Shown here piece by piece: positions 148 to 19,314 of a DNA stretch of 20,190 bases. The number at the start of each line of letters is the position of its first letter. Within the stretch, counting starts at the first letter, position 1. Position numbers and translations under genes: made by a program. Source of the stretch: a virus; the IMG/VR virus record IMGVR_UViG_3300044301_000691, positions 1 to 20,190 of that record; one strand, 5' to 3'. The notes beneath the pieces were generated by a model. It ran no database searches. It was not told where the DNA came from and was given only the letters and a program-made list of their open reading frames with translations.

Positions 148-432
148 TTAAATTGAGTCCTTTTGTGCTATAAGCCAAGCTTTGTAGTCTGCTTTGATTT
201 GAGTTGTCCAAGCTGCGTTAGCAATTGCCTGAACGTCAGCGTCTTCTCCACTGATATCTGTATCTACTAAGTTATCACTAGCATCTAGTGTCCCAGGTAC
301 AAGTACCTTTCTACTGAAGGAACGAGTAAGTTCTTTACCATCTTCTTTAATGACGGATGCAGTTCTTACTTGTATATTCCATTTATTAACGACTTCTATT
401 TTATCGTTCTCTAGTGTTTTTGTTATTGCCAT
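148..432 (-). CDS. Small fibre-cluster protein, paralogue 1 (94 aa)
   Basis: A 94-residue, charged, soluble protein of unknown function with no signal peptide or membrane segment. It is a clear paralogue of the 98-residue protein encoded at 3359..3655: 65 of the first 88 residues are identical with no gap, including ENDKIE, QVRTA, IKEDGKEL and NAAW. Both copies follow a fibre gene with a related tip domain and are preceded by the same leader of about 60 bases with a hairpin over the ribosome binding site. A role linked to the fibre (assembly helper, tip adaptor or small virion protein) is inferred from position only. The family is common next to fibre genes in marine phages. Confidence 0.85.
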   Translation of the reverse strand: MAITKTLENDKIEVVNKWNIQVRTASVIKEDGKELTRSFSRKVLVPGTLDASDNLVDTDISGEDADVQAIANAAWTTQIKADYKAWLIAQKDSI

Positions 433-495
433 TTAAGGAAGCTCTCCGAGCTAAATAGGTTTATGGCTTAGTTTAGAGACTTAGCGGCGGTCTAA
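433..495 (-). repeat. Duplicated leader, copy A
   Basis: This intergenic leader lies between the 416-residue fibre and the 94-residue gene. It matches the leader at 3656..3714 at about 55 of 65 aligned positions, with no gap. The conserved core on the minus strand includes GCTAAGTCT and TAAACTAAGCCATAAACCT, followed by a hairpin next to the ATG. The leader is at least as conserved as the protein it precedes, which suggests it has a function. A short AGAC/GTCT inverted repeat is also kept in both copies. Confidence 0.85.
440..452 (-). promoter_or_regulatory. Hairpin over the ribosome binding site, copy A
   Basis: On the minus strand AGCTC-GGA-GAGCT forms a perfect 5 bp stem with a GGA loop, ending 7 bases before the ATG at 432. 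The loop and the descending arm contain GGAG, the only Shine-Dalgarno-like sequence in the leader, so folding would mask it. The second leader copy keeps the fold with different paired bases. An overlapping alternative, GGA pairing with TCC downstream, is also possible in both copies. Confidence 0.6.
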
Positions 496-1746
496 TTAAG
501 TTGCTGTATATGTAATAGAAAAACAATAATAAGCGTCTGATTGAGCTGCAATGGCCTCATTTGCAGCATTATCTTTATTATATTGGAATCTCATATCTGT
601 CCAACCATCGGCAATTAGGACAAAAACACCATAACTCTGATCTGAACCATAGTCATGACTATGAGTTCTAAGAGCACCAACAGCATGTCCACTTGAGTCT
701 GGTCCATTATCAGCAGCAAAAGGTATATTTATTCTAAGCAGAGCATTACTATTATCAGAATCAACTCTTATTTGACCTTGTAAGTGTACTAATCTACCTA
801 CTTTTGTATAAAAACAATCTTCAATAGTCCCATGAAGAGTAACACTGTTCTGCGGTGTTGCAGTGAAAGTTCCTTCCTCATAATCATCCATCTCATTGGC
901 CGCATTATTACCACCTAATCTTATACCACCAGTTACGTTGACGCCAGTTGAAGTTGTCTCAAACTTCTTAATATTATCATAGTATAATTCAACATTCCCA
1001 TCATGATTACAAATAATTGATTGCTCACCATTCTTTGCTTGTATTTTTATATCATCAGCTCCATTACCTCTTATATGTAGATTACCAGTACCACCATGGT
1101 CGATGTATGAATGAGATGCATCATGATAGATTTGTATATCATTTCCATCTCCTATAAATAATGTATTATTATCTCCCATGTAAATATGACCATTTTGATC
1201 AAGATTACCGCTAATAGTTATACCACTGGCTGTTGTTTCTAATTTATCTGAATCATCATAAAAAAGTTTAGCAGTCCCATTTTCATCAGCAGTTATTAAA
1301 TTTTCATTATTAGCTGCGTTATTGATTTTTAAAGCGTTTGTACAAATCTTGAGAGATCCTGTACCAGTATCTTTTATTAGGCTATCAGATGCATCATGAA
1401 ATATCTCTAAATCATCGCCTGTTCCAAGCAATATCTTTTCATTATCAGCTAAATCTAAACTTGATGGACTAAGAGTACCTGAAACAGAACCTGTTGCACT
1501 TATATCGCCTGTAACGCTAACTCCTGTACCAGTTACTTCTAATTTAGTAGTTCCACCAACTTGAAGTTGTAAATTACCTGTACCTGCATCATTTATACGA
1601 CTATTCGAACCGTCATGATAAAGCTCTAAATCATTACCTGTCCCTAAGTATATTTTCTTATTATCTAATAAAGTGACTTCATCATCTTTGGCATCCACTG
1701 AATCTGAATACCTTCCTAGGGTAATTGGCCTAACTGTTGCTGCCAT
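496..1746 (-). CDS. Tail fibre-like protein with three LGTGxDLE repeats (416 aa)
   Basis: Probable accessory tail fibre or receptor-binding protein. Residues 1 to 35 are identical to those of the 468-residue fibre at 1920..3326 and look like a docking segment. Three degenerate repeats follow, beginning near residues 30, 103 and 194. Each has the pattern K/TIxLGTGxDLEIYHDxSxSxIxDxGTGNL, then a xVELYYDNxKKFETTSxGVxVTG segment. From about residue 287 a DDYEEGTFTAT motif opens a C-terminal domain related to that of the 349-residue fibre, probably the receptor-facing tip. The ATG overlaps the stop of the preceding 56-residue gene (TAATG), indicating translational coupling. The repeats are known from marine phage fibres; receptor binding is inferred. 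Confidence 0.85.
   Translation of the reverse strand: MAATVRPITLGRYSDSVDAKDDEVTLLDNKKIYLGTGNDLELYHDGSNSRINDAGTGNLQLQVGGTTKLEVTGTGVSVTGDISATGSVSGTLSPSSLDLADNEKILLGTGDDLEIFHDASDSLIKDTGTGSLKICTNALKINNAANNENLITADENGTAKLFYDDSDKLETTASGITISGNLDQNGHIYMGDNNTLFIGDGNDIQIYHDASHSYIDHGGTGNLHIRGNGADDIKIQAKNGEQSIICNHDGNVELYYDNIKKFETTSTGVNVTGGIRLGGNNAANEMDDYEEGTFTATPQNSVTLHGTIEDCFYTKVGRLVHLQGQIRVDSDNSNALLRINIPFAADNGPDSSGHAVGALRTHSHDYGSDQSYGVFVLIADGWTDMRFQYNKDNAANEAIAAQSDAYYCFSITYTAT
1642..1746 (-). repeat. Fibre docking segment, copy 1
   Basis: These 35 codons encode the same peptide as 3222..3326, beginning MAATVRPITLGRYSDSVDAK. The DNA differs at 17 of 105 positions and every difference is silent. The segment ends exactly where the first fibre repeat diverges between the two proteins. 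Confidence 0.9.
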
Positions 1747-1916
1747 TAGTCTGATACCTCCGGTGTGTTACCTGCATTTACCCATTCTAGATATTCTTGA
1801 TAATCTCTGTTAGCTTCATTCATAGGAATAAAAGCATTATCAGCTTTTCTTTTAATAATTTTTGTTTGACTTGTGCTTCCATCAGGAAATACACTATTAA
1901 TTAATTGATAAGACAT
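1746..1916 (-). CDS. Small fibre-associated protein (56 aa)
   Basis: A 56-codon gene between two fibre genes. It encodes MSYQLINSVFPDGSTSQTKI, then a basic stretch (IKRKADNAFIPMNEANRDYQ) and the tail EYLEWVNAGNTPEVSD. The YxEYLxWVxAGNTPE pattern is familiar from short proteins and C-terminal segments near phage tail-fibre genes; I do not know a proven function. Its stop overlaps the ATG of the 416-residue fibre (TAATG), and it starts 3 bases after the 468-residue fibre ends. No strong Shine-Dalgarno is visible, so it may depend on coupling with the upstream fibre. A role in fibre assembly is inferred from the coupling and the position. Confidence 0.8.
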   Translation of the reverse strand: MSYQLINSVFPDGSTSQTKIIKRKADNAFIPMNEANRDYQEYLEWVNAGNTPEVSD

Positions 1917-1919
1917 AGG

Positions 1920-3326
1920 TTATAACTCCGCATCTAAACCAATATGTTGGTTAGTATTATTTGTCAATGCTGCAGCATAGTCAGCATTCCCTAAATCGCT
2001 AGTGTTAGCTAGAGCAAGAGCAACCCAATTACTATTTTCAGTATAGGCAACGCCAAGGACGCTACTTATTGCAGAATTAGCACCTTGAGAATAAATATGA
2101 CCTCCAGCTGCCATATTTTCTACTGTTGGTTCCGTTCTTAATGGTGTAGATAAATTCAATCCTGTTGCTGTTTTATTCCCATTGTCATAAGCATAACCAC
2201 CATTTATCCCATAATCACCACCAGTACCACTACCACCCCAACGTTGGTAGTATCTCTGACACTTACTTAAAGTTTCTGCATATGATTCAAATTTGAAATC
2301 ATTTGCTGTTTGACCAAGTTCTAATTGAACTCCTGTAAGTTCAAGTGTTGCATCATCTGTTGTGTACCATGTAGAAGTATTATCTGGCATTTCTGTTCCA
2401 GAGCCATGAGCAGCCCAAGTATTTAAAGCAACCCCAGAATCTGTTTTATTTGTCCCTTTAAACATCGACCATACAATTCTTAGTCCTTCACCATTATCAT
2501 TATCAACAGTAATATTACTATTACCTGGAATTGTTTTTGTTACCTTAGTCCAAGTATCAGCTGTTAATGAACCAGTTTCAAAAGGATAATTTTGTTGAGT
2601 ACCGTCTGCTGTTTTTACATATCCATAGAAGTTTTGAGCTACACTTGATTTAATCCAAAATTGTAAGGTGATATAACTAGAAGTTGATGTATAATGCCAA
2701 CCACTATTTGCTATATTTCGTGCTTCAAGACGAAGCTGTAATTGTATTCTATCATCTACACCAGCGCCACTTGTTTGATTACCGTTTGTAACTTTCCAAG
2801 CTTTTCTAAATCCTAATTCGTAAGGAGTTGTTCCACTTGAAACATCAACTTGTGCATGTGTTGGAGTTTCATCATTATTTTGTGATTCTAGATAAAATCT
2901 GTCAACAACGATACTATCAGCAGTACTAGATGTAGTTCCGCGTTGGGCTACTACACAATTTCCATTAATAACTAGATTATTAGTACAGACACCTTTACTT
3001 GGTCCGGTTATCTTAATACCACCTTCTACAGTTTCAAAAGTTTTTTGGCCATTATGATAGATTTCTACAGAACTATCACCTATACATCTTATAAACTTTT
3101 CATTAGTAGCATACCTTCTTAATTGTAATTCATCTGCTGAACTTAAATATAAATTACCTGTACCTTTTTCATCTATGAAAGAATGAGTTCCATTATGATA
3201 AATTTCTAAATCATTACTATTACCTAAATAGATTTTTTTATTATCCAGTAATGTGACTTCATCATCTTTAGCATCTACTGAATCCGAATATCGACCTAAT
3301 GTAATCGGTCTAACTGTTGCTGCCAT
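1920..3326 (-). CDS. Tail fibre-like protein with jelly-roll type C-terminal region (468 aa)
   Basis: Probable receptor-binding fibre. Residues 1 to 35 are identical to the N-terminus of the 416-residue fibre. One fibre repeat follows (about 30 to 108: KIYLGNSNDLEIYHNG ... VEIYHNGQKTFET). From about residue 115 the protein changes to a different domain. It begins NLVINGNCVVAQRGT, contains probable beta-sandwich strands with many aromatic residues, and reaches TGVQLELGQTANDFKFESYA and LSKCQRYYQRWG (331 to 364). That last pattern is common in phage tail proteins with a carbohydrate-binding-like fold. The last hundred residues are Gly, Asn and Thr rich. AGGAAT upstream of the ATG may serve as ribosome binding site. 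Compared with the 416-residue fibre, this is one dock with a different tip. Confidence 0.85.
   Translation of the reverse strand: MAATVRPITLGRYSDSVDAKDDEVTLLDNKKIYLGNSNDLEIYHNGTHSFIDEKGTGNLYLSSADELQLRRYATNEKFIRCIGDSSVEIYHNGQKTFETVEGGIKITGPSKGVCTNNLVINGNCVVAQRGTTSSTADSIVVDRFYLESQNNDETPTHAQVDVSSGTTPYELGFRKAWKVTNGNQTSGAGVDDRIQLQLRLEARNIANSGWHYTSTSSYITLQFWIKSSVAQNFYGYVKTADGTQQNYPFETGSLTADTWTKVTKTIPGNSNITVDNDNGEGLRIVWSMFKGTNKTDSGVALNTWAAHGSGTEMPDNTSTWYTTDDATLELTGVQLELGQTANDFKFESYAETLSKCQRYYQRWGGSGTGGDYGINGGYAYDNGNKTATGLNLSTPLRTEPTVENMAAGGHIYSQGANSAISSVLGVAYTENSNWVALALANTSDLGNADYAAALTNNTNQHIGLDAEL
3222..3326 (-). repeat. Fibre docking segment, copy 2
   Basis: The first 35 codons of the 468-residue fibre. 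The peptide is identical to that encoded at 1642..1746, while 17 of 105 bases differ, all silently. Confidence 0.9.
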
Positions 3327-3358
3327 TTAAAATTCCTATTGTGTTGATTTACAAAGTT

Positions 3359-3655
3359 TTATTCCGGAATAATATTTTCGTCTTTAGCTTCTATTAAGAA
3401 TGCTTTAAAGTCTGCTTTAACTTGATCCGTCCACGCAGCATTGCAAATTGCCTGAACATCGCTGTCCTCTTTAGATAGGTCTGTATTAACTAGGTTATCA
3501 CTGTCATCAAGTATTCCAGGCTTCAAAACTTTTCTTTCAAATGAACGGCTAAGTTCTTTACCATCTTCTTTAATAATTGTAGCTGTCCTAACCTGAACAC
3601 ACCATCTATTAACTATTTCAATCTTATCGTTTTCTTTTGTCTTAGTTAAGCTCAT
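3359..3655 (-). CDS. Small fibre-cluster protein, paralogue 2 (98 aa)
   Basis: Paralogue of the 94-residue protein at 148..432, about three-quarters identical over 88 residues, with a slightly longer acidic tail (EAKDENIIPE). It is soluble and charged, with no recognisable catalytic motif. It follows the 349-residue fibre, whose tip domain is related to that of the 416-residue fibre, so the fibre tip, leader and small gene behave as one duplicated cassette. The leader hairpin overlaps its likely ribosome binding site. Function unknown; a fibre-linked role is inferred from the repeated association. Confidence 0.85.
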   Translation of the reverse strand: MSLTKTKENDKIEIVNRWCVQVRTATIIKEDGKELSRSFERKVLKPGILDDSDNLVNTDLSKEDSDVQAICNAAWTDQVKADFKAFLIEAKDENIIPE

Positions 3656-3714
3656 TTAGGGAAATTCTCCGAATTAAACAGGTTTATGGCTTAGTTTATA
3701 GACTTAGCAACGGT
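3656..3714 (-). repeat. Duplicated leader, copy B
   Basis: The leader between the 349-residue fibre and the 98-residue gene. It is the second copy of the sequence at 433..495. It keeps GCTAAGTCT, TAAACTAAGCCATAAACCT and the AGAC/GTCT inverted repeat, as well as the distance to the ATG. About ten substitutions separate the copies, and four of these are the paired changes in the hairpin. Confidence 0.85.
3663..3675 (-). promoter_or_regulatory. Hairpin over the ribosome binding site, copy B
   Basis: On the minus strand AATTC-GGA-GAATT forms a perfect 5 bp stem with the same GGA loop as copy A. Relative to copy A, two stem pairs have switched (G-C to A-T and C-G to T-A), so both partners changed and the pairing was kept. 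The GGAG in the loop and stem is the likely Shine-Dalgarno sequence. Confidence 0.6.
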
Positions 3715-4764
3715 CTAGACTGTTGAGAAACAACCAGAAATATACATTTGCATAGCAGTTCTATCCATACCACTATTTTTCATGCTTTGCCATGTAAGAT
3801 CATCTCCACATTCATAGAGCCTCATATCATTATCGGAATGTGTTAAATAACCAACTATTTGTTCTCTACTATTATCCATCTTAATTTCTTGGTGCATAAC
3901 AGTGAAAGTATGTCTTGAATAGGCATTTGCATGATTAGCTGGTGTACTAAAAGGTAAAGACATTTTGAATACGGTTGCATTATTAGGAGGTACAGTTCCA
4001 CCTGATCCGAAATAAACAAAGAAGTGTACATATACCAGTGAACCTATTTTTACGTATCTCCCTTTAGTATGTCCTGAACTGTTTTGCGCAGCAGAACCAC
4101 TATTAGGAAAGGTTATTGTCCATGAGCCCTCTTCATAGTCGTCCAAAGCATTCTCCGGTGCAGTATCCCCGTTGAAAGATATACCTCCGGCTGCTTGGAT
4201 ACGAACTTTCTCCGTAGGATTTATAGTTGTATCAGCAGTGCCATCAACATAAAATGCTAGTCCAACTTTATGACTTCCCTCATTTACTGGTCTGATATCA
4301 GCAGCACCATATTGAGATGCTCCGAATCTTAGGTAATCAAAAGGATTAGCAGCTAAATTACCTCCAATATTAATACCTGAACTAGTTGTTTCAAACTTCT
4401 TTGTATCATTATGATAAAGTTCTACAGCACCATCAGGTATAAATTTAGCCATATTTTTGTTAGTGGAACTAACATAACTTTGTATGGCTACTTCACTATC
4501 AGATCTTATTCTTAATGCACCAGTACCTTCATCTTGAATATAAGAATGGGCTCCATCATGCCATAGTTTTAAATCATGACCTGTACCAATAAATAGTTTT
4601 TGATCATCATCAAGTCGAATTGTTCTACCAGATACAGAAGAATCGAAAGTCATTTTACCTGTTATTTCGACGCCTTCACTATTTGTCTCAAACCTCAGGT
4701 TAGCATTATGGTATAGGTCAACTGCACCTACACCATCAGCTGCTTTAATGACAACTTTAGTCAT
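3715..4764 (-). CDS. Tail fibre-like protein lacking the docking segment (349 aa)
   Basis: Probable accessory fibre or fibre tip. It starts in the middle of a fibre repeat: residues 10 to 36 (GVGAVDLYHNANLRFETNSE GVEITG) match the second half of a unit. One full repeat follows, from about residue 52 (DDDQKLFIGTGHDLKLWHDG to KKFETTSSGINIGG). A spacer leads to LDDYEEGSWTITF at about 207, which opens a tip domain related to that of the 416-residue fibre. The shared MAATVRPIT dock is absent. The ATG directly abuts the stop of gp17 (TAAATG), so it should be translated together with gp17. It may attach through gp17, or it may be the distal half of a rearranged longer fibre. Confidence 0.82.
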   Translation of the reverse strand: MTKVVIKAADGVGAVDLYHNANLRFETNSEGVEITGKMTFDSSVSGRTIRLDDDQKLFIGTGHDLKLWHDGAHSYIQDEGTGALRIRSDSEVAIQSYVSSTNKNMAKFIPDGAVELYHNDTKKFETTSSGINIGGNLAANPFDYLRFGASQYGAADIRPVNEGSHKVGLAFYVDGTADTTINPTEKVRIQAAGGISFNGDTAPENALDDYEEGSWTITFPNSGSAAQNSSGHTKGRYVKIGSLVYVHFFVYFGSGGTVPPNNATVFKMSLPFSTPANHANAYSRHTFTVMHQEIKMDNSREQIVGYLTHSDNDMRLYECGDDLTWQSMKNSGMDRTAMQMYISGCFSTV

Positions 4765-6099
4765 TTATTTTCCCTCCAACTTTTCTAATCTCTCTGATAG
4801 TTCTTTAATAGCATTTACTAGAACAGGTACTAATCTTTCATATTTAATACCAAATGCAGTTCTATCTTCATTGAGATTGACAACTAACATATCATCTCTA
4901 CCATTACCAAACCCTGCACGTTGCTCAGGTTCAAGAGCTTCTTGTGCTAAGAAACCTAGATGTAGTTTATCTTGTTTTTTAGTACCATCAGGTTTACCAT
5001 TCTCATACCAATCTCTTTTATCCCATCTATAAGTTACAGGTTTTAGATCTTTAATCCAAGCTAAACCATGATTAAATTCTTTAATATCTGTTTTATCTCT
5101 TTTGTCAGATGATGATATAGAAGTATCAGCACAATAGAAATCTGTTACAGAACTATTACCTATACATACTGTATTACTAGCTGTTGTAATTTGTCCTGAA
5201 GGGCTACCTGTTTCACCTGCACCATTACCTATACATGTATTATTTGCACCTGTACTTATTGATTTACCAGCTTGATAACCTAATCCAGTGTTATTAGCAC
5301 CTGTTGCTAGGTTTAATGCTTGGTATCCTAATGCAGAGCAATTGCCATTTGTTGATATTGTAAGTAAAGCACCAGAACCAACTGCTGTATTATAGTCACC
5401 AGTTGTAATTGCAGTACCTGTATTATATCCAATGGATGTATTATGAGTACCGCTACTTGCTGTAATACTATCACCAGCATTAGTACCACCTGATGAATTA
5501 CCATCAGCATCTAATGTTAATCCTGTACCTCCTGCACCTGCTGGTCCAGTCGCACCTGTAGCACCTGCTGGACCTTGAGGACCAGCTGGACCTGTAGCTC
5601 CTGTTGCACCTGTTGCGCCTGTTGCACCCGTAGCTCCGGTAGCACCCGCAGCTCCTGCTGGACCTGCTGGACCTGCTGCACCTGTAGCACCTGCAGCTCC
5701 TGTTGCACCAGGTGTACCAGTTATTGTGCCACTAAGTACTGTACCTTGTAGATCTTGTACACATTTTAATATTTGATCATTATTTGTATTTAATTCACCA
5801 ACATCTAAAGCTGTTCCAGCTGAAAATGTATGAATTATCGTATTATAATCCGTAGATCGTGTAATACGAATATTTTTACCATTTGTTACAGGTGTAGCGG
5901 CTGGAATATTTCCACCTGTAAATCTAATTGTTGTAGGATTATGGAAATTATAATGAGTACCTTTTGTTTTTAATACCCATGATGGTGTACCACCTTCCCA
6001 GACATACACTAATACATCAGCTTCTTTTATATAGCCAAATGTAATTGTAAAATCTGTATTCGACGCATTACCTGTATATTCAACTGGAGGAAGTGCCAT
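4765..6099 (-). CDS. T7-like tail fibre with collagen-like shaft and S74 chaperone (gp17-like)
   Basis: Main tail fibre, 444 residues. Residues 1 to about 120 resemble the T7 gp17 N-terminal domain ([20 protein letters not shown] ... [13 protein letters not shown]) that anchors fibres to the tail. Residues 128 to about 193 are a Gly-X-Y collagen-like shaft rich in GAT and GPA. Residues about 210 to 316 are repeats such as [16 protein letters not shown] and NTCIGNGAG, like the beta-roll of trimeric adhesins. The C-terminus, from about 329, is a Peptidase_S74 intramolecular chaperone: the [12 protein letters not shown] start with the Ser331-Asp332 expected at the cleavage site, then [10 protein letters not shown] and a coiled-coil end ([13 protein letters not shown]). 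Self-cleavage after trimer folding is known for the family and inferred here. Confidence 0.92.
5520..5716 (-). repeat. Collagen-like Gly-X-Y coding repeat
   Basis: A run of 9-base near-repeats encodes GAT, GAA, GPA and GPQ triplets in the gp17-like fibre, residues 128 to 193. The run is GC-richer than its neighbours and leaves long open frames in the other minus-strand phases that are not genes. Such tracts change length easily by slippage. Confidence 0.85.
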
Positions 6100-19243: not shown

Positions 19244-19314
19244 AGCGGGTAACCGGATTCGAACCGATGAACCTAGTTTGGAAGACTAGAGTTTTACCAC
19301 TAAACTATACCCGC
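19244..19314 (-). tRNA. tRNA-Gly (anticodon UCC)
   Basis: A complete cloverleaf. The acceptor stem GCGGGTA/TACCCGC is perfect. The D arm contains AGTGGT, the anticodon stem is CTAGT/ACTAG with loop CTTCCAA (anticodon TCC, reading GGA and GGG), and the T arm is ATCGG-TTCGAAT-CCGGT. The discriminator base is T, as expected for bacterial tRNA-Gly. CCA is not encoded, so the host must add it. The 5' half closely resembles cyanobacterial and plastid trnG-UCC as I remember it. It lies between the 174-residue gene and the capsid gene in the same orientation and should be cut from the late transcript. The gene is intact, so it is unlikely to be only an att-site remnant. Confidence 0.95.

Follow-up and report, generated by a model that had tools for sequence, protein, structure and literature searches.

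A conserved Shine–Dalgarno hairpin in the leader of a small fibre-linked cyanophage gene, a candidate element of translational control

Few ocean viruses are more abundant than those that infect Prochlorococcus and Synechococcus, and to our knowledge post-transcriptional control in them has been little explored. CsrA/RsmA sites present GGA in hairpin loops over Shine–Dalgarno (SD) sequences, T4 gp43 and the coat proteins of RNA phages are autogenous translational repressors, and hairpins at the 5′ end of an mRNA can stabilize it. Leader hairpins of the T4 genes e, soc, 49 and I-TevI sequester the SD sequence and/or the AUG in a helix, and the gene 43 operator of T4 and RB69, a hairpin with a UAAC loop about 40 nt upstream of the AUG, binds DNA polymerase (PMC3014915). 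RegB alone cleaves efficiently where GGA is unpaired and the fourth G is constrained (PMC3014915). Structured RNAs of marine phages include the cyanophage motifs PhotoRC-II, manA and wcaG (PMC2864571) and the glutamine riboswitch of Melnitz/Mosig (PMC9004378).

We describe here a leader in which the GGA of the SD sequence lies in the loop of a short hairpin framed by a mismatch and an outer base pair, an architecture not found in any family searched. Rfam 15 (4227 families) gave no match at the element, either at gathering cut-offs or at relaxed E-values (E ≤ 5 for the window, the whole 20,190-nt stretch of DNA analysed; E ≤ 1 for 12 related loci), and no paper describing it came up in the open-access papers searched; the preliminary description likewise knew of no such element. 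Judged by comparison of sequences, it forms a new RNA family within a known general type, that of structured leaders at ribosome binding sites.

Two paralogous leaders in a T7-like marine phage

The 20 kb window comes from a T7-like marine phage. Its genes include those for a major head protein, a tail tube protein and long internal proteins, together with a T7-type tail fibre gene that carries collagen repeats and an S74 chaperone and, after it, more fibre-like genes. A collagen-like G-X-Y repeat with a period of 9 nt occupies 5510–5752 within the tail fibre gene, and a tRNA-Gly gene (anticodon TCC) lies between head genes at 19244–19314 on the minus strand. Two small paralogues, of 94 aa (148–432, minus strand) and 98 aa (3359–3655, minus strand), are the putatively controlled genes. 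Each follows a fibre-like gene, and both belong to PHROG 6228, a family of unknown function; their proteins are 71% identical, and their coding sequences are 70% identical overall and 52% in third codon positions. The fibre-like genes at 496–1746 and 1920–3326 are nearly identical at the N-terminus (178 nt, 79%; window 1570–1747 and 3150–3327), and fibre start, leader and small gene appear from their sequence to have been duplicated as one module.

Leader 1 (433–495) fills the interval between the preceding fibre gene and the start codon of the 94-aa gene, and leader 2 precedes the 98-aa paralogue (3656–3718), with all features given here on the minus strand. The leaders are identical at 53 of 63 nt (84%), so that the approximate figures of 85% for leaders and 74% for proteins given in the preliminary description were about right. 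Each contains a single GGAG, and direct reading confirmed that in both a 5 bp stem with a GGA loop holds it. The SD hairpin of leader 1 (440–452; also supported by covariation) pairs AGCTC (452–448) with GAGCT (444–440) around the GGA loop (447–445), with the GGAG at 447–444 and the start ATG at 432; that of leader 2 (3663–3675) pairs AATTC (3675–3671) with GAATT (3667–3663) around GGA (3670–3668), with the ATG at 3655. In this layout the fourth G of the SD sequence closes the stem, and the SD sequence is nearly invariant while the sequence of the stem turns over.

The SD stem stands as first described, though the element extends further, taking in an outer purine–pyrimidine pair and a 5′ hairpin that we call P1. 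The outer pair, assigned by covariation, is A-U in leader 1 (456 with 436, spanning 436–456 around a pyrimidine internal loop) and G-C in leader 2 (3679 with 3659, spanning 3659–3679), and it alternates between A-U and G-C among relatives. Upstream of it lies a conserved linker, TAAACTAAGCCATAAACCT, identical in the two leaders (457–475 and 3680–3698). P1 of leader 1 (477–493) pairs AGAC (493–490) with GTCT (480–477) across a 9-nt loop; in leader 2 the same arms lie at 3716–3713 and 3703–3700 (hairpin 3700–3716), and the hairpin is overlapped by the TAG stop codon (3717–3715) of the gene upstream. The consensus of the element, at about 40 nt, is UAAAYC-U-R-U-Y-[4-6 bp stem]-Y-GGA-G-[stem]-Y-C-Y-UAA(A)UG.

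The hairpin is marginally stable in silico, with a mean predicted energy of −2.2 kcal/mol at 37 °C and −4.0 kcal/mol at 22 °C and a predicted pair probability in context of about 0.44; in some alleles GGA is predicted to pair with the UCC downstream instead. A terminator scan was empty, and matches to a sigma-70-type promoter stayed at chance level.

Covariation and constant positions

Two window leaders by themselves would be weak evidence of covariation. The element was found in the leaders of 71 of 80 IMG/VR loci picked by protein similarity alone, a scan with the linker motif added further loci, and 90 distinct elements were aligned. In these 90 rows 96.5% of pair cells are standard, and five pairs are changed on both sides, in 189 cells, a level reached by none of 500 shuffles. 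When the partner strand was slid by 1–3 columns, the score in the same rows fell from 0.456 to <0.1. In a set of 36 distinct rows that includes phage isolates, both sides are changed in six of seven pairs. As a phylogeny-aware null, the changes of each leader column were re-placed on a tree of the coding sequences in 150 simulated alignments and scored by G-test/APC; the pairs p5-q5, p6-q4, p7-q3 and the outer p1-q9 score above everything in these simulations. The original reading of the two leaders, that the stem keeps its pairing as its sequence drifts, is borne out by these comparisons. Apparent covariation among the linker columns u-11, u-10 and u-8 (three pairs) was rejected as an indel register artefact of GCC(A)TAAACC, and parsimony counts of double changes were dropped as event numbers, being inflated by whole-leader exchange against the coding-sequence tree.

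In 104 distinct segments, 54 of the imperfect pairs are G·U as read on the sense strand and none is A·C; this identifies the coding strand, and with it the mRNA, as the molecule that folds. A DNA operator was rejected on the drift of the hairpin arms. P1 also varies among relatives with its pairing kept (AGAC/GTCT in 131, AGCC/GGCT in 39 and TGCC/GGCA in 2). Rates of change on the coding-sequence tree differ strongly between parts of the element: the GGA of the loop, its closing G, the U at p2 opposite the C at q8, most of UAAACC and the UAA before the AUG each show 0–4 changes, single flank positions up to 13, and central stem positions 44–62. The outer purine–pyrimidine pair covaries across the U·C mismatch, which is invariant. 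Constant unpaired bases and an internal loop on a short, weak stem are what one would expect of a recognized RNA rather than of a plain obstacle.

In sum, the conserved structure carries compensatory changes and lies in the transcribed strand, two features of a cis-regulatory RNA leader. Comparison of relatives shows that the RNA structure is real, and it is the pairing, not the stem sequence, that is under selection. The original proposal that RNA structure over the ribosome binding site is selected has strong support from the covariation, the sense-only G·U pairs, the restriction to one gene family (below) and the lack of an Rfam match.

Distribution and specificity for one gene family

Searches for distant homologues and in phage isolates extended the collection to 330 distinct PHROG 6228 leaders, 258 of which have a GGA-loop hairpin directly before the AUG, with 11–14 nt from loop to start. 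The hairpin test was passed by 234 of the 330. Of 1717 other ORFs 27 passed, roughly half of them being overlooked members of the family, and the geometry precedes about 1% of other ORFs. When the model R1 was run on 64 whole records, all strong matches inspected preceded a PHROG 6228 gene, bar one decayed copy, and the idea that other genes are under the same element was dropped, since these matches gave the PHROG 6228 gene alone. The decayed copy, in RB11-B (PV261925.1 176848-176888; L257, L260), lies behind an endosialidase gene and has no PHROG 6228 gene after it.

Model matches occur in 16 of 22 named phage records, all 16 of them cyanophages. Carriers in the Autographiviridae include P-RSP2, P-GSP1, P-SCSP1u, P-SCSP2, S-SBP1, S-CBP3 and KBS-P-1A, and those in the Kyanoviridae include P-TIM68, SynMITS9220M01, S-B05, S-CAM4, ACG-2014j and S-SRM01, making the element common to T7-like and T4-like cyanophages. 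S-SRM01, like the window, has leader and gene duplicated jointly. Where annotated cyanophage neighbourhoods were inspected, the small gene is linked to fibre genes by position, as had been described for the window. The gene is present without the element in the pelagiphages, the methylophage Melnitz-3 and the roseophage CRP-804. In KBS-P-1A (L222) and six further loci (L502, L503, L505, L508, L511, L516), alleles such as TCATCTGGAGGATGACCCTAATG have an additional in-frame ATG within the 3′ hairpin arm, at which translation might begin three codons earlier (MTLM...).

Pairing is rarely lost in homologous leaders, a few of which lose either the whole element or just the GGA loop. In L357, L428 and L209 (S-T4) the stem, the mismatch and the outer pair are kept and GGA is gone from the loop, so SD display may not be the element's entire function. 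All nine cyanophage relatives without the element have their start codon within a few nucleotides of the upstream stop and no SD sequence; the element and translational coupling thus seem to stand in for one another at the start of the PHROG 6228 gene.

P1 is mostly replaced in T4-like phages by the late-promoter octamer NATAAATA (53 of 249 elements), a cyanomyovirus late promoter motif (PMC2984593). Because T4 late start sites follow the octamer at a distance of about one helical turn (PMC2988020), the T4-like mRNA likely begins near GCCUAAACC, which would give a predicted leader of only about 36–40 nt with one helix. From this predicted start we infer that the SD hairpin is the common core and P1 an accessory of the podoviruses.

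In phages of other hosts, most PHROG 6228 relatives have an ordinary SD sequence. Their leaders include GGA-loop hairpins in 14 of 52 cases, where 5.4 are expected (sd 2.0, maximum 11 in 100 shuffles); those in L200, L433, L439, L441, L481, L482, L488, L491, L498 and L214 have TGGAT or CGGAC loops, and several are followed by CGGACA and then a normal SD sequence, resembling CsrA-type tandem GGA sites. This excess hints at a GGA-binding factor.

The protein itself gave few leads. Pfam, NCBIfam and PDB sequence searches were empty, and a weak match to PHROG 2949 (T7 1.2) was rejected, as an alignment-wide scan did not support it. An AlphaFold2 model of the 94-aa protein (mean pLDDT 95.7) has long strands and two C-terminal helices; comparison with Foldseek and VIA-align returned no convincing fold, and the protein, apparently acidic, shows no likeness to any known RNA-binding fold. 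A scan of cellular contigs found no close copy and nothing for the window protein; a freshwater homologue gave one partial match, on an Opitutales MAG contig.

Proposed function and comparison with known systems

Most likely the element governs how the PHROG 6228 gene is translated, as its place over the SD sequence and next to the AUG suggests: it is probably a cis-acting mRNA leader element that gives this small gene of picocyanobacterial phages its own, tunable ribosome entry. The hairpin would set the access of the 30S subunit to the SD sequence, and its weak stem could be melted by the ribosome, so that the gene would have its own start site and would not rely on ribosomes leaving the fibre gene. 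With less assurance, we propose that the invariant internal loop and flanks may be read by a trans-acting factor, encoded by host or phage, which would raise or lower translation; that a regulator binds here is plausible. Our fuller and tentative hypothesis is of an undescribed RNA class of T7-like and T4-like cyanophages, a translational switch in which a factor, either the PHROG 6228 protein or a picocyanobacterial RNA-binding protein, would read the GGA and U·C loops and set the small fibre-associated protein independently of the fibres.

There are other possible explanations, which differ in what, if anything, binds the leader. The element could be a constitutive device without any regulator, the hairpin just keeping the SD sequence out of other structures or protecting the mRNA 5′ end. 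Its weak stem fits such a role, as do the three variants that keep the hairpin without the SD sequence and the T4-like hairpins, which would lie just behind the transcript start; but the invariant U·C mismatch, the covarying outer pair, the GGA loop and the long conserved linker exceed the needs of a plain hairpin, and other genes of the same phages manage without one, and we think this reading somewhat unlikely. The regulator might instead be the gene product, with the PHROG 6228 protein shutting off its own translation by binding to the GGA hairpin and the internal loop in the leader. Occurrence solely before this gene, joint duplication of leader and gene in the window and in S-SRM01, invariant unpaired bases with drifting stems (the pattern of a protein operator) and GGA-loop hairpins in the unrelated leaders that the family has in other phages (the 14 of 52 above) all point that way. 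The gene also occurs without the element, however, and the acidic-looking protein has a confident model that matches no solved fold, so we regard autogenous control as rather doubtful.

Readings that place the element in a known functional class fare less well. A riboswitch sensing a small metabolite, comparable to the glutamine riboswitch or perhaps to manA/wcaG-type motifs, could draw on the conserved unpaired linker adjoining the SD hairpin and, in podoviruses, on P1 as a second helix; it is improbable given the short, single-helix leader predicted for T4-like phages, a gene linked to fibres and not to metabolism, and the absence of an Rfam match. The unpaired GGA and constrained fourth G match the geometry of RegB targets (PMC3014915), and GGA in a hairpin loop over the SD sequence would suit a CsrA-like repressor, yet in the 22 phage records the REGB_T4 profile was over cut-off in none and no CsrA was encoded, leaving a RegB-like endonuclease or CsrA-like repressor very improbable. 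A function in DNA, as a folded single-strand recombination site or a boundary for swapping fibre modules, would explain the element's precise position at the ends of variable fibre genes, its joint duplication with the gene and its presence in two phage families; we give it hardly any weight, as wobbles fall on the coding strand alone (54 to 0), the loop is a suitably spaced SD sequence, and the element always lies beside the start codon of one gene family.

This compact, strongly covarying RNA, shared by two unrelated phage lineages and tied to one uncharacterized gene behind the tail fibres, offers a clear handle on how cyanophages may adjust protein amounts in the host-recognition module. 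The natural stem alleles are ready-made compensatory mutants, making it a specific, testable RNA.

Compared with PhotoRC-II, manA, wcaG and the Melnitz/Mosig glutamine riboswitch, likewise structured RNAs of marine phage genomes, the element serves a different kind of gene and matches no Rfam model, these motifs included where they are in Rfam. It shares GGA in a hairpin loop overlapping the SD sequence with CsrA/RsmA hairpins, but lacks their usual hexaloop and second GGA, and no CsrA was found in the 22 phage records. With the RegB GGAG targets of T4 it shares the unpaired GGA and constrained fourth G, whereas the strong-site consensus GGAGRAYARAA (PMC3014915) is not seen and no homologue scored over cut-off. 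Like the gene 43 operator of T4 and RB69, it is a small phage hairpin with a conserved loop upstream of one gene; here, however, a hairpin with a GGA loop directly precedes the AUG, and the binder is a candidate only. The T4 hairpins of e, soc, 49 and I-TevI are likewise phage mRNA hairpins that each cover one gene's ribosome binding site, from which the cyanophage element differs in holding GGA in the loop, in its conserved internal loop and linker, and in its occurrence in two phage families.
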